This document shows, in pieces, positions 1 through 17,471 of a stretch of 22,442 bases of DNA (positions are counted from its first letter, which is position 1; each line of letters starts with the position of its first letter). Where the stretch lies: the IMG/VR virus record IMGVR_UViG_3300025543_000239, positions 1-22,442 of that record; one strand, given 5' to 3'. The notes under the pieces are model-generated. The model worked only from the letters and a program-made list of their open reading frames with translations, did not search any database and was not told the DNA's origin. Source of the DNA: a virus. The translations under genes and the position numbers were made by a program.

Positions 1-704
1 CCGATTTCAAGCTGGACGCCTGTGATGTAGAAGGTTGCTGAAGCTGAACCTATCCAAGCGGCTTGATTGGTTGTGCTAAAGTCCTGACTTGCAAGCCAAG
101 TGTCGGCACTCGCTTGATAGGTTGACCCAGAGCCAAAATCCCAATATATCCGCAAACCATTACCATTAGTTCTATTCCAGCTACCTGTCGTGTCGCCAGA
201 CGAAATTGTAATGGTTTTCTTCTCCCAAGTGTTTGCGCTTGAAATTGTGTATTCTTTAATATGCGAACGATCTGCTGTTGTAGAATACAAAGCAATGCAG
301 TATGTCCCAGCTAAACTGGATTTGACCCAAAAAGATAATGTGACAGCCTTTGCGTCACTATGACCATAGGCAAGTTGGCTAACATTGTACCCCTCTATAT
401 CAGTGGCGTAAGCATAAAAATCGCCAGCCGCAACAGAACCATCTGTAGCTGTGTTCGTTAGCTTTGCACTAAACTCAAACTCATTGTTTGGCACATCTGT
501 AGACTGTTCTACGGTAAATGTACCGCCGCCATTTGCCCAACCCTTAAAACGGTCAGCCGCAAAAATGTCATTACCGCTAACAGTTGTTGCGCTGGTTCCG
601 CGCTGGAAAATAGGAAACGCACCATTGATGATGAGGTTGCGCCCTGTCAGTCCACCCGCATCTGCGCTACCAGCTAGGTCTGCGAAATCTCTTGCTCTGC
701 TCAT
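1..704 (-). CDS. Tail fibre / receptor-binding protein, C-terminus cut by window edge
   Basis: I translated this frame by hand: it is open from an ATG at 704 to the window edge, 234 codons without a stop, so the C-terminus lies outside. It begins MSRARDFADLAGSADAGG, followed by GRNLIINGAFPIFQRGTS, a segment typical of the start of a jelly-roll, carbohydrate-binding-like domain in marine phage fibres. The visible part ends FYITGVQLEIG, which in related fibres closes that beta-sandwich. TLSFWVKSS near residue 140 is another strand typical of such lectin-like folds. The ATG shares a base with the TAA of the small upstream gene (TAATG), so the two are translationally coupled. The likely role is host receptor or glycan recognition at the tail tip. 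The fold family is clear in outline; the ligand is unknown. Confidence 0.85.
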   Translation of the reverse strand, partial: MSRARDFADLAGSADAGGLTGRNLIINGAFPIFQRGTSATTVSGNDIFAADRFKGWANGGGTFTVEQSTDVPNNEFEFSAKLTNTATDGSVAAGDFYAYATDIEGYNVSQLAYGHSDAKAVTLSFWVKSSLAGTYCIALYSTTADRSHIKEYTISSANTWEKKTITISSGDTTGSWNRTNGNGLRIYWDFGSGSTYQASADTWLASQDFSTTNQAAWIGSASATFYITGVQLEI

Positions 705-746
705 TATGACCACTCCTCTGTAGGCGCATCAGGCCAAGTTGGGCTG
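702..746. repeat. 45-bp direct repeat, copy 1 (end of chaperone-like gene / start of fibre gene)
   Basis: The first 35 bases match 1800-1834 exactly, and after one mismatch (737 a versus 1835 t) the next nine bases match again. The repeat covers the last 14 codons or so of the small upstream gene, its TAATG junction and the first base pairs of the next fibre gene. The flanking fibre sequences are unrelated, so the repeat marks a module boundary. Confidence 0.95.
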
Positions 747-934
747 TCTGAATTTGTTTTGCGAATAGTTCGGATACTGGCACGATAAGTGGCAAACAAG
801 GCTACACACGCATCTGTTAAACCGCTATCTGGCAACTGTGTCCAGTCGGTGGCTTTAAGAAGTTCCTCTGCTGTAGGTGCTATAAGCACATCTTTACTAG
901 GATTAGTTACAAAAATGTTTTTATAATTTGCCAT
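704..934 (-). CDS. Small tail-assembly-chaperone-like protein (second copy)
   Basis: A 76-residue protein, MANYKNIFVTNPSK..., preceded by a purine-rich site (AGGATAAAAAT) before the ATG. Its C-terminal half has the pattern of the phage tail assembly chaperone family often called Phage_tail_APC: LLKATDWTQLPDSGL, then a YR..IR..R segment, then TWPDAPTEEWS at the very end. It is a clear paralogue of the gene at 1802-2035: 39 of the last 52 residues are identical and both start MANYK, while the middle has diverged. Each copy sits immediately upstream of a different fibre gene. The inferred role is assembly or folding of that fibre, or of the tail tip. The family assignment rests on the motif pattern alone. 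Confidence 0.8.
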   Translation of the reverse strand: MANYKNIFVTNPSKDVLIAPTAEELLKATDWTQLPDSGLTDACVALFATYRASIRTIRKTNSDSPTWPDAPTEEWS

Positions 935-938
935 ATTT

Positions 939-1802
939 TTATCCTACCAAGTAGCCGCTAAAATGCGGGTCGTATATCGTAGTGGCATCTGCAAATACAT
1001 AGTTACTCCCCATTACTGCTCTTACACGGTCATTTGCTGCTAGATAAACACTTCCTGAAACACTAATATTAGGAAAGCTTGTGCTGCTAACAACTTGGGA
1101 AAATCCACTTGCAAAAGAGACTAACCCAGTAGTGAAAGCATCGTCAGTTGCTTTTTGCAATATTACATTGCAGTTGCTGCCAGCACCAACAGCCCCGCCA
1201 ATAGTATTCCCACTGCCAAAGCCAGAAAAATTAAATTGATATACTCCAGCAACAGGGGCTTTAAAAAATCCCGCAGTATCGTAGTGACTACCTATGTTTG
1301 TAACAACTGTGTCAAATGCTAGTTGACCAGTTATTCCCACACCCCCAGTGTTATTCGCTTCTGTAACATGAAAAAAAGGTTTGGCGGGTTGAAGTACACG
1401 CCCAGTGCTATCAATGGTCATAGCCGTTGTAGTGCCAGTAACCTCTTTGATTGTGCCTACGTTTAAACCACTATTAGCTGTTACACCACCACTAAACGTA
1501 CCGCCGGATGTGGCAGAGACAGTGTCGGCTACGTTAAACACATCGTAGACCAAGATCTCAATGATATCCCCCGCCGACAACGCAGATAGGCCAGCTATCG
1601 TGTTGGCAGTCGTGGTGTTGTAATCCGTGCCCGCAACTAACGTAACGCCGTTAAGCGCAACGTCTACATACGCCCCATCGGTAAAACTAAGACCTTTCCC
1701 GGCATCATCGTTACCAGATATAGAGGTGGCTCCGCCGCTGGCTTGTGTGTAATAGAAGCGGTTTCTAACACCAAATTTTTCGGATCGACCTATGTATGGC
1801 AT
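939..1802 (-). CDS. Tail fibre with C1q-like C-terminal domain
   Basis: I start this gene at the ATG at 1802 (MPYIGRSEKFG, 287 residues), which shares one base with the upstream TAA; three more codons could be read upstream but would only increase the overlap. Residues 1-105 carry an N-terminal domain common in marine phage fibres (FYYTQASGG, then VDVALNGVTLVAGTDY, then DIIEILVYDVFNVADTVSA), probably the virion-attachment part. Residues 141-287 resemble a C1q/TNF-like trimeric beta-sandwich: FFHVTEANN, GQLAFDTVVTN, then GFFKAPVAGVYQFNFS, which matches the characteristic F..P..GVY.F core. C1q-like heads in phage fibres usually act as receptor-binding tips. The start MPYIG resembles MPYLG of the gene at 5568-6239, suggesting a shared attachment module. 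Confidence 0.85.
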   Translation of the reverse strand: MPYIGRSEKFGVRNRFYYTQASGGATSISGNDDAGKGLSFTDGAYVDVALNGVTLVAGTDYNTTTANTIAGLSALSAGDIIEILVYDVFNVADTVSATSGGTFSGGVTANSGLNVGTIKEVTGTTTAMTIDSTGRVLQPAKPFFHVTEANNTGGVGITGQLAFDTVVTNIGSHYDTAGFFKAPVAGVYQFNFSGFGSGNTIGGAVGAGSNCNVILQKATDDAFTTGLVSFASGFSQVVSSTSFPNISVSGSVYLAANDRVRAVMGSNYVFADATTIYDPHFSGYLVG

Positions 1803-1844
1803 TATGACCACTCCTCTGTAGGCGCATCAGGCCATGTTGGGCTG
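1800..1844. repeat. 45-bp direct repeat, copy 2
   Basis: This is the partner of 702-746, with 44 of 45 bases identical. It spans the 3' end of the first chaperone-like gene and the start codon of the C1q-like fibre. The two copies lie 1,098 bp apart in direct orientation, so recombination between them would delete or exchange exactly one fibre plus one chaperone gene. Confidence 0.95.
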
Positions 1845-2035
1845 GATGGGTTAGTCTTACGGATTACCCTGAGTGCTTGACGATAGGTATCAAATGCAGT
1901 CACACAGCTAGATGTTAATCCTGAATTGGGTAGTTGTGTCCAATCAGTAGCGTCCAACAACGCTTGTGAAGCTATTTCCACTCTAACGGAGCCATCTTCT
2001 GCTTGGAAAAGCTCTATACCTTTATAATTAGCCAT
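1802..2035 (-). CDS. Small tail-assembly-chaperone-like protein (first copy)
   Basis: A 77-residue protein (MANYKGIELFQAEDGSV...) of the same family as the 76-residue gene at 704-934. The C-terminal half shows LLDATDWTQLPNSGL, DTYRQALRVIRKTN and TWPDAPTEEWS, matching the DW...YRqaLR...WP..P pattern of phage tail assembly chaperones. It begins four bases after the preceding fibre-like gene and ends in TAATG with the C1q-like fibre gene. The likely role is folding or assembly of the adjacent fibre; this is inferred from motif and position. Confidence 0.8.
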   Translation of the reverse strand: MANYKGIELFQAEDGSVRVEIASQALLDATDWTQLPNSGLTSSCVTAFDTYRQALRVIRKTNPSSPTWPDAPTEEWS

Positions 2036-2038
2036 GTC

Positions 2039-2503
2039 CTACCCCGCTATTTCCATAACAATAATTCTACCGTCATTAACATAATATGCACTGCTGGCAT
2101 TGTTTGTGAGACCTTGAACTTTATAAGTAACGGCACTTGCAGTGCTTGGAGAATCCAAATGCGAAAACGCTACGGAATCTCTTACTTGCACACCGCCACT
2201 GCCGGTTCCCGCACCCGCTATAGTAGAAGCAAGCGAGGTGCTGTCACGCAATAGCGAAAAACTACATTGCACGTTTGCACCACCTACCAAAGCATTTGTC
2301 ATTCCACAAGAAACTGAAACGAAGATTTTGCTAGATGTACTTGTAGGGGTGATTGATACAGTAAAGTTAGCAATATCTGAAAGGGTTGTGTTTGTGCCGC
2401 CGCTAACAGTACCCACTGTTCCATTTGTTACGGTTTGCAAAACAGTACCAGTTGGCAATCCAGATGTGGCTACGCCACCATTTGAAATTTTACTTATTGC
2501 CAT
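2039..2503 (-). CDS. Small fibre-tip / receptor-binding beta-protein
   Basis: A 154-residue beta-rich, Ser/Thr/Gly-rich protein. It begins MAISKISNGGVATSGLPTG, an N-terminus common among marine phage tail-tip proteins, followed by VLQTVTNGT. The central segment FTVSITPTSTSSKIFVSVS matches a pattern (ITP.STSSKI.V.V..) seen in many uncultured marine phage fibre tips. A later stretch, VTYKVQGLTNN, resembles the strand pairs of a jelly-roll. It has no signal peptide and no membrane segment. It follows the 188-residue Tfa-like gene by four bases, so it may be a client of that protein. The structural call is good; the precise role is inferred. Confidence 0.75.
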   Translation of the reverse strand: MAISKISNGGVATSGLPTGTVLQTVTNGTVGTVSGGTNTTLSDIANFTVSITPTSTSSKIFVSVSCGMTNALVGGANVQCSFSLLRDSTSLASTIAGAGTGSGGVQVRDSVAFSHLDSPSTASAVTYKVQGLTNNASSAYYVNDGRIIVMEIAG

Positions 2504-2507
2504 ATCT

Positions 2508-3074
2508 CTACTCCGGCCAGTCGTTTATCGGGGCATTAGCGGTTGGGTTACCATCACTATCAACTGGTGTATCCCATAATGCCACAAAAGCAGCCATATC
2601 GCTAGCCCCATCAATCGAAGCCTCAATCGCGTTACTCGCAGCGCGGATCGCGGCACGAGCAGTCAAGGTATCGCTGGGCACGTTATAGTCAGAAATTTCT
2701 GACGCTTTGATTACCATCCAGTCCGTAGGAGCCAACAAACCTGCGGCTTGATCCTTAGTGTTTTGCTTCCATTGAGACTTGAGGCCAAGCGTAACTATCT
2801 GGTTGCCATCAACATCGTTTACAGCGTTGCCGTCCTCATCGACTTCGTTAACGTCAACGAGTGAACGCTCAATCAAGGTGCCATCAGCTTGGCGTCCCCA
2901 ATAGAACTTGTTATCAAAAGGAGCCTCACTTGCTGGCGCATCTTCCCAAACAACTCCAAAGGTCGTTTTTTCATCTTCAGACCAAATAGTCCAGTTTCTA
3001 GGGTGCGTCACACCGTTGTCATCGGTCCACGCCTTGCCAGCGCGGATAGTGCGATTGTTGTATTTCCAAGGCAT
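2508..3074 (-). CDS. Larger tail-fibre-assembly-like protein
   Basis: A 188-residue acidic protein, MPWKYNNRTIRAGKAW. The N-terminal 60 residues contain several Trp-rich turns (NWTIWSEDE, GVVWEDAP, FYWGRQADG), as in short domains that precede phage tail assembly factors. The C-terminal part has QWKQNTKDQAAGLLAPTDW (residues 101-119), then a YNVPSD...RAAIRAASN segment and a final PINDWPE. This is the same DW - YR/RAAIR - W-P ordering seen in the 76- and 77-residue proteins, so I read it as a longer, more distant relative. It sits between the 824-residue fibre and the next fibre-like gene. The function is inferred. Confidence 0.7.
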   Translation of the reverse strand: MPWKYNNRTIRAGKAWTDDNGVTHPRNWTIWSEDEKTTFGVVWEDAPASEAPFDNKFYWGRQADGTLIERSLVDVNEVDEDGNAVNDVDGNQIVTLGLKSQWKQNTKDQAAGLLAPTDWMVIKASEISDYNVPSDTLTARAAIRAASNAIEASIDGASDMAAFVALWDTPVDSDGNPTANAPINDWPE

Positions 3075-3083
3075 TTTTATCTC

Positions 3084-5558
3084 CTATCTGGCGTTACTAA
3101 ATTTTGCGGGTTGGTCTGCTATGGCAAAATATACATATCGAACCCCTGATGCGTTTTGGTTGGCACCCGCGCCAGTCAGCCTAAATCCATTAGAATGTAT
3201 GTTCACTGGATATGTGTTAGCAGCTTCCACCACACTTTGGTCGGCCCACATTCCCGGTAATAACGCAACATTAATTGGCGACCTTGATGTATCATACATC
3301 TGCCAACCATATGTTGTACTACGAGTTGTTTTTTTCAACATTAAGAAGGCTGGTCGAAAACCTGTGTATACGAAATTATTTGCATTATTGCCAATGTAAT
3401 GAGATGCTTTACTGTAACCATCTACATCGGCAAAACAGTAGGCTATGTAATCTTCACCGTCAGCGTTCACTGAATGATCTGAACCTACTGTAAAAACGCT
3501 GTCTGTGGGGGCTGTGTCATTCCACCAATTGGGGCTATCAGCTACGGCATTAATAAGATTCAGTATCATGTAATCAGTCTCAGGGTCACTAGCTGTGCCA
3601 GCGTGGTAGACTGCCCAATTGTCAGCTTGATCTCTATTCTTAATTATAATCATCGTTGGCTTTGCACCACAGCCGTGTGATACTGTTCCAGCGGAGCCAG
3701 TCCCGGTGTATGACACAATCGAAAAACCAGCGTCGGCATTTGATGAACTGGAAAATGCAGGATTGTTCCCAACCTCGCTACCAGATGCGGTAGTGCCAGC
3801 TTTCCAGTTCCAAGCAACGTAGGTTCTGCCAGAATAGTTCACATAACCGCCAGTAGTCGCTACAGCCCCATCGTCAACGCTAAATCCATCAGCATCAAAA
3901 GATGAAACAAAACCATAATCACCGTCTGGATATGAGTTTACAGTTCCTTCAACAGCCGTTGTGTTAGAGCTTAAATTTTTACCACTACCCGCACCACGAA
4001 CTGAATCATAAAGTTGGTGGTCTTGTGAAGTTCCACTGCGGATTTTTAACCAAGAAAAATCTGGCTGAAACCCTAGCCCAGACAAGCTGCGAGTTTGTGC
4101 GGCATCACCGGTCCAAAGCACTGTATTAAAATGCTCAGTGCCATCAATAATCGTAGGCGTTTGTAAATTTGAGGAACAAATTGAAAGAAACCCATTTGGC
4201 ACCGCGTAAAAAAAATCGCCAATACCATTGTCATCAGAACCATTTGCAGAACCGCTTGTTTTTAATCCTGCAAAACTGCTGTCTTGCCCAAAATTAAAAG
4301 TGTGCGTACCCGAAGTCGAAGTTCTGTTTGTAATAGGCACAAGAATAGAACCATCATAATTATCGATTGTTCCAACTTCACCTGTTCCATTAGCGGGGTC
4401 GCCACTGTTATACCAACCAGTGCTGTTACCTATCCAGACCTTGCCGTTAGACGCATCAAAAGCAAAACGCAATACATTGCTTGCTGGGTTGTTAGTCAAG
4501 CCTGTTATGACAGAACTGCCATTGGCATTAATGACTGTGTTATAATAAACTACGCCTTCAGTATACAAAGTTGATGCTGTTGCCTTTGAGTTTTGAACGC
4601 CTACGCCAGTCGCTTGACCACTGCCCTGCAAAGTCGTCACAAACTCAAAGTAATACTTGCCGCCGCCAGCACCCCCAGTAACTCCTATACTACCTTGTCG
4701 CCAAACATTAGTAGACCAATTACTCGAAGCTGTAACAGCTAAATTACCCTCAGCATATGTGACTGTTTGGCCTGTGTCATTTAAAACATTATAGGTAGCA
4801 AAGTTATTAGTCGGGCTGTCAGGCACGACATCTGTTGCAACTAGATTGTTTACAGTCCAATCGTTTGTGTTGCCGCTTTCATCATCTCCTATTGCGCTAG
4901 AATCATCGAACGGCAAATAGAATCCATTGGTTCCGTATGAACCTGAGTAGGCTTTTGGAATCCACACGCCGTCCTTTGTTTCACCAAAGCTGGAGGGTGT
5001 CAGGGCGGTTCCGTCAATCCAGTGCATTTCAGCTAGGTATAGGTCGGCATAAATACTTGATGTACTTTCTCTGCGGCCTATGGTTTGTACAACGGTGTTA
5101 TTAAAAGCAAGTTCAGCATTTTCCGCACAGACTTCGGAAATAAACGATGTTTCTTGAGTGCCGTTTATATAAAGTTTAAAACGGTTCCCAGTACCTCCTG
5201 ATTGAGTGGTATCTATCGCAACTACAATATGATACCACGCTAATGAGTCTCGAAATACTCTTGTCGTCTGGAAATTTAAATCTGTGCCATTACCATAAAA
5301 AGTCATAGTGTCGGTTGTATTAAATCTAAAATTATAGTAATTGCCAGCCGCACCAAAAATACTTGTATTTATACCCAAGTTCCCACGTTTAACCCAACAA
5401 CTAAGCGTAAATGTCCTACGGTTGCCAGCAGATGAAGGAGTGCGACTTAGATACGCACTATCGTTATCATTGAACCGCAAAGATTGGTCAATGGTGTAGG
5501 AGTAGAAATCACCGCCGGGGTTGTAACCCCAAGGACTTGATCCAAAAGGTCCTGACAT
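3084..5558 (-). CDS. Large tail fibre with LamG-like, SPRY-like and repeated C-terminal domains
   Basis: An 824-residue protein, the largest in the window. Residues 20-220 form a LamG/concanavalin-like domain: RTFTLSCWVKRGN, DSLAWYHIVVAID, RFKLYINGTQ and LYLAEMHWIDG are its typical strands. Residues 270-425 resemble a SPRY-type sandwich (GKYYFEFVTTL, LRFAFDASNGKVWIGN, HTFNFGQ). Residues 498-818 hold three diverged copies of an 80-90 residue repeat, starting PDFSWLKIR, PTMIIIKNR and PAFLMLKKT and ending AWNWKAG, AYCFADV and YFAIADQ. Such architectures are found in marine phage fibres and presumably bind host surface glycans. The ATG follows GGAAGAGCTT. It contains no peptidase or glycosidase motif that I can see. 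Confidence 0.85.
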   Translation of the reverse strand: MSGPFGSSPWGYNPGGDFYSYTIDQSLRFNDNDSAYLSRTPSSAGNRRTFTLSCWVKRGNLGINTSIFGAAGNYYNFRFNTTDTMTFYGNGTDLNFQTTRVFRDSLAWYHIVVAIDTTQSGGTGNRFKLYINGTQETSFISEVCAENAELAFNNTVVQTIGRRESTSSIYADLYLAEMHWIDGTALTPSSFGETKDGVWIPKAYSGSYGTNGFYLPFDDSSAIGDDESGNTNDWTVNNLVATDVVPDSPTNNFATYNVLNDTGQTVTYAEGNLAVTASSNWSTNVWRQGSIGVTGGAGGGKYYFEFVTTLQGSGQATGVGVQNSKATASTLYTEGVVYYNTVINANGSSVITGLTNNPASNVLRFAFDASNGKVWIGNSTGWYNSGDPANGTGEVGTIDNYDGSILVPITNRTSTSGTHTFNFGQDSSFAGLKTSGSANGSDDNGIGDFFYAVPNGFLSICSSNLQTPTIIDGTEHFNTVLWTGDAAQTRSLSGLGFQPDFSWLKIRSGTSQDHQLYDSVRGAGSGKNLSSNTTAVEGTVNSYPDGDYGFVSSFDADGFSVDDGAVATTGGYVNYSGRTYVAWNWKAGTTASGSEVGNNPAFSSSSNADAGFSIVSYTGTGSAGTVSHGCGAKPTMIIIKNRDQADNWAVYHAGTASDPETDYMILNLINAVADSPNWWNDTAPTDSVFTVGSDHSVNADGEDYIAYCFADVDGYSKASHYIGNNANNFVYTGFRPAFLMLKKTTRSTTYGWQMYDTSRSPINVALLPGMWADQSVVEAANTYPVNIHSNGFRLTGAGANQNASGVRYVYFAIADQPAKFSNAR

Positions 5559-5567
5559 AAGCTCTTC

Positions 5568-6239
5568 CTACGCTAACGCTGCAAAAGCGAGTTGAGGAGT
5601 ACCTAGTAAAATTTTATCGGTGTCCTGAACCATGTACGGCACAACATCAATTGCGCTTGCGGCAGTGGATATGGTTATAGCACCTCCGGGAGCAAAGAAC
5701 TGGTTACCCGTGGACAACCCCCTGCTACCTGAACCGTCTTGAATTAAAATAATAAAACCTGTCTGACCTACGGCTTCCGTAGTCGGATTAACCAGTACCA
5801 CGGCTCCTGTCATGGTAAGAACAAAGTTTTGATAAGTGTCAAAATCAAGAGTGATGTTGCCTGAATTGGTGGTGTCTACAAAAGTTGTCCCCTGAACCGC
5901 TTTAGCTAATGTAAGATCTCCGCTCACGGTCAAGTCTGTGATCGACATATTAGTGCTTGCCGCAGGACTTACAGTCTGCTTTGCCATGCCTTGAAAAACA
6001 ACGTAAAAGTCATCTGTTGTCTCGACATCACCGAGCATTGTCAAAGTTGTTCCCCCGGCGGTATACGCTACCGAAGGCTCTTGACGCACATTATTAACAA
6101 AAACTTCTATCTCGTTTGCGTTTAACACAGCGTTATTAAGGGTAAAGCCCCGCTTTACGGGATCTCCTGTAACATTGGTCAAATCTTGATAGCTTACCGC
6201 GCTGTAAGCAAAGGCTAAAGGATTACCCAGATACGGCAT
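5568..6239 (-). CDS. Tail fibre or tail-tip protein with conserved N-terminal domain
   Basis: A 223-residue protein beginning MPYLGNPLAFAYSAVSYQ. The first ~95 residues (GFTLNNAVLNANEIEVFVNN, then VAYTAGGTTLTMLGD, then FYVVFQGMAKQTV) follow the pattern IEVFVNNVRQEP...Y...G..L...........V...G of an N-terminal fibre module common in marine phages and also present in divergent form at 939-1802. A repetitive linker (SITDLTVSGDLTL) precedes a C-terminal beta-region (FVLTMTGAVVLVNPTT, FIILIQDGSGSRGLS). It shares its start with the TAA of the upstream gene (TAATG). Probably part of the fibre or its baseplate attachment; no enzymatic motif is visible. Confidence 0.75.
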   Translation of the reverse strand: MPYLGNPLAFAYSAVSYQDLTNVTGDPVKRGFTLNNAVLNANEIEVFVNNVRQEPSVAYTAGGTTLTMLGDVETTDDFYVVFQGMAKQTVSPAASTNMSITDLTVSGDLTLAKAVQGTTFVDTTNSGNITLDFDTYQNFVLTMTGAVVLVNPTTEAVGQTGFIILIQDGSGSRGLSTGNQFFAPGGAITISTAASAIDVVPYMVQDTDKILLGTPQLAFAALA

Positions 6240-6586
6240 TAGGTGATCTCCATAATTGACAAAGTTACATCCGTTGCACCAGTAGCTGTGACTTTTATTA
6301 TGTCAGTGGTTTCTAAAACAACCTTGTTACCGGCTAACATCTCCAACGATGATCCTGCGGGTATTGGAGCATTTGTTACAAGTTCAACCTCTTGGTTTGC
6401 CTCGTTATTAGCTCCCGCACGATTTGCCGTATCTGACGTTAAAGTAACGGTAGCTGTCTGTTGAGTGGTGGTGGTGTTTCCTAGAATAACACCAAGAACT
6501 ACTGTAGTAGTAGACGACGCTACGGTATAAATGGTGTCTATTGATGTGACACCCGCCTTTGTTATAACTTTAAATGTGTTTGCCAT
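6239..6586 (-). CDS. Small beta-rich tail/virion protein
   Basis: A 115-residue protein, MANTFKVITKAGVTS. It is almost entirely beta-prone, Thr/Val-rich (TTTVVLGVILGNTTTTQQTA) and ends in a conserved-looking VLETTDIIKVTATGATDVTLSIME. Similar short proteins sit next to fibre genes in marine phages, where they are probably structural (tail knob or head-fibre). I do not recognise a named domain. It is coupled to its downstream neighbour by TAATG. Confidence 0.65.
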   Translation of the reverse strand: MANTFKVITKAGVTSIDTIYTVASSTTTVVLGVILGNTTTTQQTATVTLTSDTANRAGANNEANQEVELVTNAPIPAGSSLEMLAGNKVVLETTDIIKVTATGATDVTLSIMEIT

Positions 6587-6590
6587 ATCA

Positions 6591-7079
6591 TTATCCTAAC
6601 GCAATTGCCAGAGCAGTGGCGTCTCCTGACGCTGTGTTGTTGATGAAGGTGGTGCTTGCCGCCATTGTTGAGGTGAAATCAGTCACCGCAGCACCGCCGC
6701 CCGCACCATCAGCGCGAATTATCCGACTTTCGCCTGTCGCCACGGTTACGTTAGCACCACTTCCTTGAGAAAATACCACTGACTGATTGGTGTCATTGGT
6801 TACAAAGTAGATTTTCTCTGCGTCATTAGGGGCAATCGTTATCGTATGTGTTCCGGAAGGAGATCCGCCACAAACAATTAACTTGTTCATGCCATCTGAA
6901 ACACTGCCGTCTGAAGTGGTTAAAGAAGAACTTGTACCTGATAAGCTTAACGTAACTACCCCATTAAGGGCCGTATCAATTATATCGAAGTTCAGGTTAG
7001 TGGTATCACCCCAAGTTCCCGATTGTTCGCCAGTAGCGGGTTTTTCAATACCGGTTCTAGTAGTATATGAGCTAGCCAT
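6591..7079 (-). CDS. Fibre-like virion protein with GIEKPATGEQ-type N-terminus
   Basis: A 162-residue protein. The first ~50 residues (TRTGIEKPATGEQSGTWGD, then NLNFDIIDTALNGVV) are a motif repeatedly found at the N-terminus of marine phage tail-fibre-like proteins, where the W..N.N...D...NG spacing is constant. The remainder is beta-rich (HTITIAPNDAEKIYFVTN, then SVVFSQGSGANVTV), with a Gly/Ala-rich turn at GESRIIRADGAGGGA that recurs in viral fibre domains. The ATG is preceded by AAAGAGGT. A structural role is likely; receptor-binding is possible but not shown. Confidence 0.7.
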   Translation of the reverse strand: MASSYTTRTGIEKPATGEQSGTWGDTTNLNFDIIDTALNGVVTLSLSGTSSSLTTSDGSVSDGMNKLIVCGGSPSGTHTITIAPNDAEKIYFVTNDTNQSVVFSQGSGANVTVATGESRIIRADGAGGGAAVTDFTSTMAASTTFINNTASGDATALAIALG

Positions 7080-7640
7080 TTATGCGACCTCTTTCCAATT
7101 CGCTGATTGACTCGGCACTAGGTCAGTCCATGTTCCTGCACCAGCAGGAGTTAAATCTGTCCAATTTGCCTGTTGATCCGGCGTTATGACGATTTGACTC
7201 CAGATAAAGACAATACCAACATTTCCTGTTGCTGACAATCCTGTAACGCCAAAAGCCATATCGTCTACTATCGGAGATCCGATAGCACCCGTAACAGCGT
7301 TTCCAGTTACACCGACAGTTACTGGAATTACAAGAGTAAGTGTTCCAACCGAAGCTGTCGCGGAAGTGCCCGTCAAAGTAACGGCGGCAGGGGCTTCTGG
7401 TGTAGATGTGGCCGAAGTTGCACTTACTCCCGTTACAGCTACAACGGCAGTACCAACAACCTGTTCATCGCCAAACCCTATGGTGCCAACCGCGCCAACA
7501 GGCCCGACTAAGCTACCGCCTCCGGCTAAAGGGGTGCCAAGACCCGTAGTAGCGGCTACTCCCGTTAATACTACGGGTACAGGTTGGCCCCAAGCGCCGT
7601 CACCCCACGCGCCTCTACCCCATCCGCCAATATTGGACAC
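7080..7640 (-). CDS. Repeat-containing tail protein (TGxSATxxVG and W-x-D/E motifs)
   Basis: A 186-residue protein with a GTG start (7640) after the site GGAGTAGACT; no nearer ATG exists. The N-terminus GGWGRGAWGDGAWGQP is Gly/Trp-rich. Five copies of a ~12-residue motif follow: LTGVAATTGLGT (25-36), VTGVSATSATST (69-80), LTGTSATASVGT (89-100), VTGNAVTGAIGS (111-122) and VTGLSATGNVGI (132-143). The C-terminus has three Trp motifs, ANWTDLTP, GTWTDLVP and ANWKEVA, a pattern common at the ends of phage tail proteins. The same TGLSATASVGT motif occurs in the cupredoxin-like protein at 9759-10460. The role is presumably structural. Confidence 0.7.
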   Translation of the reverse strand: MSNIGGWGRGAWGDGAWGQPVPVVLTGVAATTGLGTPLAGGGSLVGPVGAVGTIGFGDEQVVGTAVVAVTGVSATSATSTPEAPAAVTLTGTSATASVGTLTLVIPVTVGVTGNAVTGAIGSPIVDDMAFGVTGLSATGNVGIVFIWSQIVITPDQQANWTDLTPAGAGTWTDLVPSQSANWKEVA

Positions 7641-10460: not shown

Positions 10461-11128
10461 TATGTTGTCCTAAAATATTGGAACTGCGGCACAACATTAA
10501 AGGATGCTCTATCCCGGTCTTCTGCCATAGCCCTTTCAAACTCTTCTTCATACATTGCTTTTAAGAGTTGTGCTCTATTCGGGGCTCTTTTGATGGATAT
10601 ATAATACGCTAATCCCGCAGCTAAACAAGGATACAGCCTAAACGGAACATCTAAAGTGTTAGTGTACTCGTCCGCGTCATCCATTCTAGTTAAGGCATCA
10701 TATATAATAACATCGGTGCTGTTCTCTGGAACAGGCCAAACTTTTAAAACCGGCGTGACTTGTCGGTCTAAGAAAAACTGGTTAGGTCTACCCGTAGTCG
10801 TTTTTGTTGGAATAGTTAGATAATCATCCCGACTCATCCTAGTTAAGGCAAAATCGGTTCCATCTCTTCGCACCACAACAGATAGAATATCAATAATGTT
10901 AGTTCCTAAAGTGTAGTCGCCTGTACCAGAAGTAACTGCCTGAGTGCTTTGAGCAATAGTCCACTGGTTTAGACCCCGATTGGCCCATTCTGCCAACATC
11001 AGGTTTAACGAGCGTCTAGCTGTCTTCAAGTCATACCCCGTGCGAACTTGCAGCCCGCATCGCTCAAACGCCTCTTCAACGTAATCCGTTACGTCTAACT
11101 CAAAATTTGTGCTACCAGAAAGGGTCAT
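10460..11128 (-). CDS. P22 gp4-like head-tail connector
   Basis: A 222-residue protein. The N-terminal part, DVTDYVEEAFERCGLQVRTG, then DLKTARRSLNLMLAEWANRG, then LNQWTIAQ, is typical of packaged-DNA stabilisation / tail accessory factor proteins like P22 gp4, and continues with a beta-region (DYTLGTNIIDILSVVVRRDG). RPNQFFLDRQVTPVLKVWPV and a long C-terminal helical end (YYISIKRAPNRAQLLKAMYE) follow the family order. It would bind the portal ring after DNA packaging and prevent loss of the genome. It is coupled by ATGA to the upstream gene and by TAATG to the downstream one. Confidence 0.8.
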   Translation of the reverse strand: MTLSGSTNFELDVTDYVEEAFERCGLQVRTGYDLKTARRSLNLMLAEWANRGLNQWTIAQSTQAVTSGTGDYTLGTNIIDILSVVVRRDGTDFALTRMSRDDYLTIPTKTTTGRPNQFFLDRQVTPVLKVWPVPENSTDVIIYDALTRMDDADEYTNTLDVPFRLYPCLAAGLAYYISIKRAPNRAQLLKAMYEEEFERAMAEDRDRASFNVVPQFQYFRTT

Positions 11129-11805
11129 TTCTTATCTTCCGCATACAGGTTGTCGAAGATCTGATTTACATCCATTGTATAGTCTAAATCCGATTTTGAA
11201 TAGTGTATATGCTGCGAAGGTAGAAAATCAGGGGGACCTTCACCTGTTTCAAACCACGCTGGATGCGTAACACGAACACGATTGTTAGGCAACGCAACAA
11301 TATTTCCGGTGTAAGGACCCGCATCCAAAAGTTCTAGAACGTGGCTTTGTTTGTGCTGGGCGGGATCGTCCGCTATCTCACTTTCGGTATAATCTACCGT
11401 AAAATAGTATTTAGCCGGAAAAAAATCAGGCCCTATTTTGGCAAGCCACGGGCAAGGATGAGCTCTATCTAAACGATAAACTGCGTGTGTATGGGACATG
11501 CAGTCCCAAGGTTGCGCCAAATGGACAGGCATAGGTTCGGGCCATTCTTCAAAAGGAGTATCGCCCACAAGAGCCGTAATAGGCATTCTAGCCCACATCG
11601 CTCCCCCGTGGATATTTGGATCATCCGTCCCATCTGCCTCGCAGCCGGTGAATATCATCTGAAAACTTAAACACCGGCTAGGCATTGTAGTAACGGCAAC
11701 CGCCATAGCATGAAGAAACTCACCTTGGTATTTCAAATGGTTACAGGTGTATTCCCTTCGCACCCAACATTTGAAATGCGGTATATTGCTCTGAAGATAA
11801 GGCAA
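11125..11805 (-). CDS. Conserved phage protein of unknown function, TTG start
   Basis: A 226-residue protein starting with TTG at 11805: the first in-frame ATG is 34 codons later and would remove the conserved-looking start MPYLQSNIPHFKCWVRREYT. The start lies one base after the upstream TAA, with AAGG about ten bases before it. Visible features are a Cys-rich N-terminal half (four Cys in the first ~60 residues), AMWARMPITALVGDTPFEEW, and AQPWDCMSHTHAVYRLDRA near the centre, which holds two His next to each other in SHTH. Similar proteins are found at this position in uncultured marine phages. I do not recognise a fold. Position before the gp4-like gene hints at a head or connector role. Confidence 0.7.
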   Translation of the reverse strand: MPYLQSNIPHFKCWVRREYTCNHLKYQGEFLHAMAVAVTTMPSRCLSFQMIFTGCEADGTDDPNIHGGAMWARMPITALVGDTPFEEWPEPMPVHLAQPWDCMSHTHAVYRLDRAHPCPWLAKIGPDFFPAKYYFTVDYTESEIADDPAQHKQSHVLELLDAGPYTGNIVALPNNRVRVTHPAWFETGEGPPDFLPSQHIHYSKSDLDYTMDVNQIFDNLYAEDKK

Positions 11806-17021: not shown

Positions 17022-17471
17022 CTAGAAATGAAGAACGTCTTCGGGTTCTTGTATTTTTGCCAATATTTCGTCGTCGTTCAAAATACGAACTTCGCCGCCG
17101 TCTATTTTAAAACGTGAACCTGAGTAACGCGCAAACATCACCCAGTCCCCCTGCTCACACCAACTCCCCATAGGGAATTTCTCTTTGTCTTTGTAAGCTA
17201 AAGAACCCACTTTCAACACATATCCTACCTGAGTAGATACGGTTTGTTCTTGAACAACAGCGTCTGGCAAATAAATACCCCCGTCAGTTTTACCCTTACC
17301 TCTGTACGGTAAAACCAGAATTCTCCACCCTGTAGGGCTAGGCATTCTTTCTAGGAGAGACTCCCCAATAGCACTGGGGTCTAATACCTTGTCGGTAACA
17401 TCTTTATACGCGGAAGCTATGTTTTCAACACCTTCCGAAACCTCTGCGAGGTTGATCTTTGCGTCAGTCAT
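17022..17471 (-). CDS. Phage-encoded GroES-like co-chaperonin
   Basis: A 149-residue protein with a Cpn10/GroES domain at 48-140 and a 47-residue N-terminal extension that host GroES lacks. The domain starts GWRILVLPYRGKGKTDGG, and GGIYLPD (64-70) lies where GroES has its mobile-loop GGIVL motif that binds GroEL. Further matches are TQVGYVLKVGSLAYKD (80-95), WCEQGDWVMFARYSGSRFKI and EVRILNDDEILAKI at the end. T4 gp31 is a known phage GroES substitute needed for capsid folding; I infer the same here, with host GroEL, because the gene sits next to scaffold and capsid. It overlaps the previous gene by 8 bp. Confidence 0.85.
   Translation of the reverse strand: MTDAKINLAEVSEGVENIASAYKDVTDKVLDPSAIGESLLERMPSPTGWRILVLPYRGKGKTDGGIYLPDAVVQEQTVSTQVGYVLKVGSLAYKDKEKFPMGSWCEQGDWVMFARYSGSRFKIDGGEVRILNDDEILAKIQEPEDVLHF

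Follow-up and report, generated by a model that had tools for sequence, protein, structure and literature searches.

The tail fibre genes of the window (the whole stretch of viral DNA analysed here, 22,442 nucleotides of IMG/VR record IMGVR_UViG_3300025543_000239) appear to form an array of tandem cassettes, each made of a fibre gene followed by a small chaperone gene. The comparison with other phages suggests that a fibre head and its chaperone are exchanged as a unit, with the 3' end of the chaperone gene acting as a conserved joint. We give this reading a probability of roughly three in four. The joint is common to different neighbouring genes, the identity of the chaperone tracks that of the upstream head, and DNA similarity stops either at the joint or where the N-terminal anchor of the next gene finishes. 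We infer that homologous recombination within the joint drives the exchange, that receptor specificity changes with it, and that each chaperone serves the head encoded upstream of it. A cassette would thus consist of a fibre, with an N-terminal anchor and a C-terminal head mostly of the C1q/TNF type, and then of a small chaperone helping its own upstream head to fold or trimerise. The head and the chaperone, above all the variable N-terminal part of the latter, would be inherited and exchanged together. The conserved 3' end of the chaperone gene and the TAATG that follows, sometimes with the anchor of about 31 codons of the next gene, would be the joint that accommodates different neighbours.

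We give coordinates as positions in the window, which is a fragment, and all fibre and chaperone genes discussed are on the - strand, where their order is P0006 (5558-3084), P0003, P0005, P0002, P0004, P0001 and P0007 (table 1). A preliminary description of this DNA had delimited a chaperone-fibre cassette at 702-2035. Both small genes and the repeat are indeed inside this span, but they are part of a larger array that begins upstream, at least at 5558, and that is cut at the other end by base 1 of the window. Contig L023 comes from the same phage (99.8% identity over 983 nt) and encodes the complete counterpart of P0007 (366 aa); it carries, in its positions 1-4766, the phage sequence about 3.8 kb past base 1 of the window. 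Elsewhere in the window there is a gene for a GroES-like co-chaperonin (17022-17471, - strand; PF00166, 49.7 bits), and phage HTVC023P has a co-chaperonin annotated at a like position, 3' of the portal. The window also has a PHROG ferredoxin match (11125-11757, - strand; phrog_3704, E = 1.7e-17) without Pfam family.

Table 1. Features of the fibre array, in window coordinates.
Feature	Position	Strand	Description
Fibre P0007, MSRARD type	1..704	-	PHROG 4492 tail fiber protein; truncated by window end
Joint copy 2	702..746	-	Last codons of P0001 (WPDAPTEEWS) with GAGGAG as ribosome-binding site; P0007 starts at TAATG
Chaperone P0001, 76 aa	704..934	-	PF16778, 29.0 bits; PHROG tail fiber assembly; putative partner P0004 (upstream)
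Fibre P0004, 287 aa from ATG at 1802-1800	939..1802	-	MPYIG N-terminal anchor and C-terminal C1q head
Joint copy 1	1800..1844	-	Last codons of P0002 with the ribosome-binding site; P0004 starts at TAATG
Chaperone P0002, 77 aa	1802..2035	-	PF16778, 34.7 bits; PHROG tail fiber assembly; putative partner P0005 (upstream)
Fibre P0005, 154 aa	2039..2503	-	All-beta TNF-like head (model), without Pfam family
P0003, 188 aa	2508..3074	-	Divergent protein, probably the chaperone of P0006
Large fibre P0006, 824 aa	3084..5558	-	PF24299 DUF7483; PHROG virion structural and tail fiber

P0001 and P0002 exceed the cut-off of Pfam family PF16778 (Phage_tail_APC, 26.6 bits) and match PHROG tail fiber assembly proteins, in agreement with the earlier suggestion that these paralogous small proteins resemble tail assembly chaperones. 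They are 60% identical overall, and the 39 identities reported among their last 52 residues are exact. The 45-nt repeat has one mismatch between its copies and forms the core of a longer repeat (65 nt, 86% identity). Its end on the coding strand is TGGCCTGATGCGCCTACAGAGGAGTGGTCATAATG, that is, the codons of WPDAPTEEWS with an internal GAGGAG followed by TAATG, in which the stop codon of the chaperone (TAA) overlaps the ATG of the next ORF at both junctions. In bins of 30 nt, the two copies are only 13-47% identical 3' of the junction and about 13-37% identical 5' of the two chaperone genes, bearing out the picture of a near-identical direct repeat between divergent flanks. The common protein sequence does not account for all of the identity in the repeat, since the same codon is used at 10 of the 11 identical degenerate residues in the last 14 codons and at 7 of 25 in the 39 codons before these (Fisher p = 0.0006). 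Outside the joint, the two chaperone genes differ at 44% of the nucleotides.

The repeat alone does not imply a duplication or an exchange inside the window phage, because its junctions are equally close to that of another contig, L005. The junction 45-mer of the gene at 704-934 is identical (0 mismatches) to one in L005, whose junction is as close to the two copies of the window as these are to each other. Local duplication was hence rejected as the origin of the repeat: other phages have a junction just as similar, and the upstream heads have no DNA similarity. This also disposes of the term duplicated cassette used in the preliminary description, as the heads are unrelated in sequence and near-identity is a property of the junction across the family.

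An exact 35-mer of the junction is present in 8 other viral contigs, and a looser pattern in 31. We collected the relatives of P0002 and of alignment A1 in viral contigs, i.e. 62 distinct chaperone copies, and 46 of these have the TAATG junction. The genes after the joint vary (starts MALGK, MPYIG, MSRAR, MALS, MTS, MASEL, MSKD and others), and the gene before the chaperone is usually a fibre whose C-terminus looks by eye like C1q (..FSGYLVG, ..FFGYFLG). Across 43 non-redundant relatives, synonymous codons agree more often than codon usage predicts, mainly in the last 12 codons (mean excess 0.27 vs 0.07 elsewhere, p = 0.0002), also when the two Shine-Dalgarno codons are removed (p = 0.0008), in a test that treats codons as independent, ignores phylogeny and uses a 12-codon limit set after seeing the profile. 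The GAGGAG sits 8 nt before the ATG of the next gene, and the two Glu codons of the joint are GAG in 40/43 and 38/41 relatives. Conserved Pro codons lie 15 to 27 nt 5' of the Glu codons, with CCT in 41/43 at codon -9.

The joint is found in at least three lineages: phages with an HTVC023P-type portal (the window and L070), phages with a T7-type portal (L012 and L043), and HMO-2011, for which the portal comparison gave neither an HTVC023P-type nor a T7-type match. The isolate HTVC023P itself has a related portal and no detectable PF16778-family chaperone in the 42-kb stretch searched, and a scan of genome contigs retrieved only distant chaperone relatives (31-47% identical). Nearly all compared contigs are metagenome assemblies, where short repeats can make false joins, and HMO-2011 is the sole isolate in the chaperone comparison. 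The same arrays also contain a second, more divergent chaperone type ending in ..DDVTWPxKP (L004 7976-8297, L022 2692-3013, L027 6628-6901, L028 3057-3444 and L043 4244-4436).

The preliminary description had paired each small protein with the fibre that it precedes. We analysed this in 54 copies, using the identity of the chaperones without their last 15 residues, the C-terminal 100 residues of the upstream fibre and the first 45 residues of the next gene. These pairwise identities of defined ends replaced a single-linkage clustering of the neighbour genes, which lumped nearly all fibres together because their domains are mosaic. The Mantel rho of the chaperone was 0.52 with the upstream fibre and 0.21 with the next gene, in a test that does not model phylogeny, although uncorrected shared ancestry would lift the downstream value too. 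The partial rank correlations were 0.51 and 0.18, respectively, and the genes on either side of a chaperone hardly correlate with each other (0.11). The link to the upstream head weakens along the chaperone, from 0.43 for its N-terminal part to 0.38 for the core, and has faded to 0.06 by the last 12 codons. These values support the assignment of the chaperone to the upstream fibre and not to the downstream one, and the proposed pairing has to be reversed. The upstream pairing fits the order fibre then chaperone, which is described as usual in T4 and Mu (PMC7289586). P0001 and P0002 are placed directly 3' of the fibre that they would serve, like intermolecular chaperones of the gp38/Tfa type, both by position and by these statistics.

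We then located where DNA similarity stops in 22 pairs of copies with similar heads and in two pairs involving L009. Similarity stops at most 10 nt from the chaperone stop codon in 14 of these 24 pairs, at +93 to +118 nt in 8, mostly where a common N-terminal anchor (MALGKIKADTLEHSTAG..) finishes, and runs on in 2; several pairs come from one HMO-2011-like group and the 24 are not independent events. The shared blocks consist of the C-terminal fibre head and the chaperone, at 75-96% identity. HMO-2011, the complete genome of an isolate (L022), is among the pairs, with L025, L026 and L033. It should be stressed that similarity must end at the gene border when the next gene is different, so the end points alone are no proof of a crossover in the repeat.

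Blocks shared by different backbones illustrate the pattern. L005 has an HMO-2011-like backbone (79% nucleotide identity over 1.1 kb) and L009 a window-like one (73% over 717 and 470 nt). In this region they share only 677 nt at 90.7% identity, covering a fibre head and the chaperone. The block begins 85 nt inside one of the two fibre ORFs, 694 nt inside the other, and ends 2 nt past the stop codon; the next gene is of the MSRARD type, that of the window, in L009 and of the MALGK type in L005. Since the L009 chaperone matches its L005 counterpart exactly as far as the DWT codons and diverges beyond them, a second crossover near the domain border of the chaperone is likely in L009. L044 and L049 show the opposite arrangement within the chaperone. 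L020 has a P0004-type head with a P0001-type chaperone, 88% identical to the window over 764 nt, and a different next gene. One head is therefore found with different neighbours and with similarity ending at conserved flanks, which is the pattern of T-even-type exchange.

The cassettes vary between contigs that have the flanks of the window, with MANTFK.. on one side and, on the other, MSRARD and MPLTKLQFKPG.. (or a close relative of it). Those of L070, of L073 and of the window are unlike in number and type, and those of L009, which ends in the MSRARD gene, differ again. The P0006-P0003 pair comes before the PF16778 cassettes in the window and after them in L075, L062 and L058. Yet cassette order is not random, as L002 keeps that of the window (P0005-like fibre, chaperone, MAYIG fibre, chaperone, MSRARD fibre). 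The comparison of related contigs for different fibres joined at the repeat, which the preliminary description had called for, thus retrieved them: different fibre genes follow the same sequence in many contigs, and both the set and the order of cassettes vary between like flanks. This favours the exchange of receptor-binding modules at the junction, as had been proposed, and the movement of chaperone and fibre as one unit, with the upstream fibre in place of the downstream one.

The fibres of the two cassettes had been considered unrelated. P0004 has a partial C1q match (PF00386, 34.1 bits for a cut-off of 23.7; profile positions 15-55 of 127). The structure model of P0005 (pLDDT 81.6) has as best Foldseek matches the TNF-like lectins BC2L-C and PLTL (E = 2e-6, TM 0.57-0.64) and also resembles phage tail-needle knobs; relatives of P0005 are present in many of the compared contigs. 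The two heads differ in sequence and probably share a fold class. In L005, three consecutive P0005-type fibre genes (6009-7574) have no PF16778-family chaperone between them, hence a P0005-type head does not always come with one. The chaperone sequences have a variable N-terminus and a conserved C-terminus; the structure model is poor (pLDDT 64.8) and its fold search gave no match.

P0003 has no Pfam match, and thus falls outside PF16778, and it matches the chaperone profile built here with 40 bits at residues 98-145. A relative of P0006 followed by a relative of P0003 is also found in the isolate CRP-406 and in L062, L058 and L075. By sequence and position, P0003 is a probable divergent chaperone of the large fibre P0006. 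The P0003 relative of Roseobacter phage CRP-406 (L046 9349-9891) is annotated as 'N-acetylmuramidase/lysin'. P0003 of the window matches no lysin family in Pfam or PHROG, and this label is possibly a misannotation.

Other processes could produce some of these patterns. The junction may be kept for its function, i.e. for the C-terminal residues and the coupled ribosome-binding site, in which case illegitimate recombination and selection would shuffle the fibres and the repeat would be uninvolved. The position of the GAGGAG and the prevalence of GAG at both Glu codons are in line with this, and illegitimate recombination at gene borders gives the same end points. However, the synonymous excess persists without these two codons and reaches the upstream Pro codons, no RNA structure is predicted at the junction, and some crossovers (L005/L009, L044/L049) seem to lie inside the conserved core of the chaperone. 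We regard this explanation as possible, if rather unlikely. It is far less probable that the mosaics arose through misassembly of metagenomes at short repeats. Many contigs do end near a junction, as expected at repeats or variable sites, but the pattern recurs in many contigs with blocks that have diverged (75-96% identity), it involves the isolate genome of HMO-2011, and the order of the window at the last junction is confirmed by the independent contig L023.

Similarly improbable is the growth of the array by tandem duplication in the lineage of the window, with fibres that diverged afterwards and the 45-nt repeat as a scar. The paralogous chaperones in tandem, with their near-identical ends, would be expected from it; the perfect match of the joint to L005, the lack of DNA similarity between the upstream heads and the 44% difference in the remainder of the chaperone genes would not. 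We give even less credit to a programmed switch, by site-specific inversion or deletion at the repeats within one phage population. Tandem cassettes with short near-identical repeats might evoke such a system, but the repeats are direct, all cassettes are on one strand and the three junctions of L002 differ among themselves. The inverted sites of Mu Gin or shufflon-type invertible cassettes are absent from the junctions, and no recombinase or reverse transcriptase was found among the proteins scanned in the window, itself a fragment.

If head and chaperone are indeed exchanged at a conserved joint, a definable exchange unit with recognisable ends would be at hand for abundant marine phages, few of which have an identified receptor, and the sequence of the joint could serve to locate receptor-binding heads in metagenomes and to mark their limits. 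The linkage between head and chaperone might arise because a new head works only with its own chaperone. More speculatively, and in our opinion doubtfully, the 3' end of the chaperone gene and the TAATG could be kept as a common plug-in standard that lets unrelated lineages of marine phages hand on head-chaperone units and stack several in an array.

The process is known in kind, from gp37/gp38 of T-even phages and from the fibre-chaperone modules of Alteromonas phages, and tandem arrays of C1q/TNF-type fibres with the chaperone 3' end as joint seem to be a new variant. We found no description of this tandem-array form in the openly licensed literature, nor publications there on the tail fibre and C1q of HMO-2011 or under the name of the PF16778 family. 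In T-even phages, the fibre gene (gp37) precedes a small assembly or adhesin gene (gp38), and the specificity part is exchanged between conserved motifs. The window resembles them by the small gene 3' of the fibre and by the apparent exchange of the specificity part, and differs in that the joint is the conserved 3' end of the chaperone gene itself, that more than one cassette is present in tandem and that the heads are of the C1q/TNF type. Alteromonas phages A5 (gp8/gp9) and V22 (gp26/gp27) have a fibre-chaperone module common to phages of different families (PMC10579305, PMC7289586). These are also marine phages with a shared module and a chaperone 3' of the tail fibre, but they have one pair per phage, the available parts of both reports describe no short joint, and the V22 chaperone was reported to be of a new type, with DUF4376 and not PF16778 in its relatives. 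Candidate receptor-binding genes with C1q domains are the most variable genes of marine metaviromic islands and cryoconite phages, for which an exchange of variants was proposed (PMC3909814, PMC7468147). These aquatic phages share with the window the C1q-type candidates; in the available text of the two studies the word chaperone does not occur and no exchange joint is described.

The Puniceispirillum phage HMO-2011 (GU557055) has a chaperone 59% identical to P0002 in an array of small fibres, one of them annotated as C1q, whereas its backbone is different and its joint ends in EDFS instead of EEWS. The chaperone-family gene is annotated there just as 'putative tail-related protein'. Structurally, the most helpful comparison is with the isolate Pam3, in which gp24 is a TNF-like fibre and its chaperone gp25 has a variable N-terminal domain that binds the fibre and a conserved helical C-terminal domain (PMC9608196). 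The window array shares the TNF-like head and a chaperone whose sequence has a variable N-terminus and a conserved C-terminus, unlike in size, as gp25 has 162 residues and a full beta-sandwich N-terminal domain against the 76-77 aa of the window chaperones. Among PDB chains, 2kz6 was the sole sequence match of the window chaperone, which gave no sequence link to gp25. By analogy, the plan of the Pam3 chaperone would account for the N-terminal part remaining with the head.
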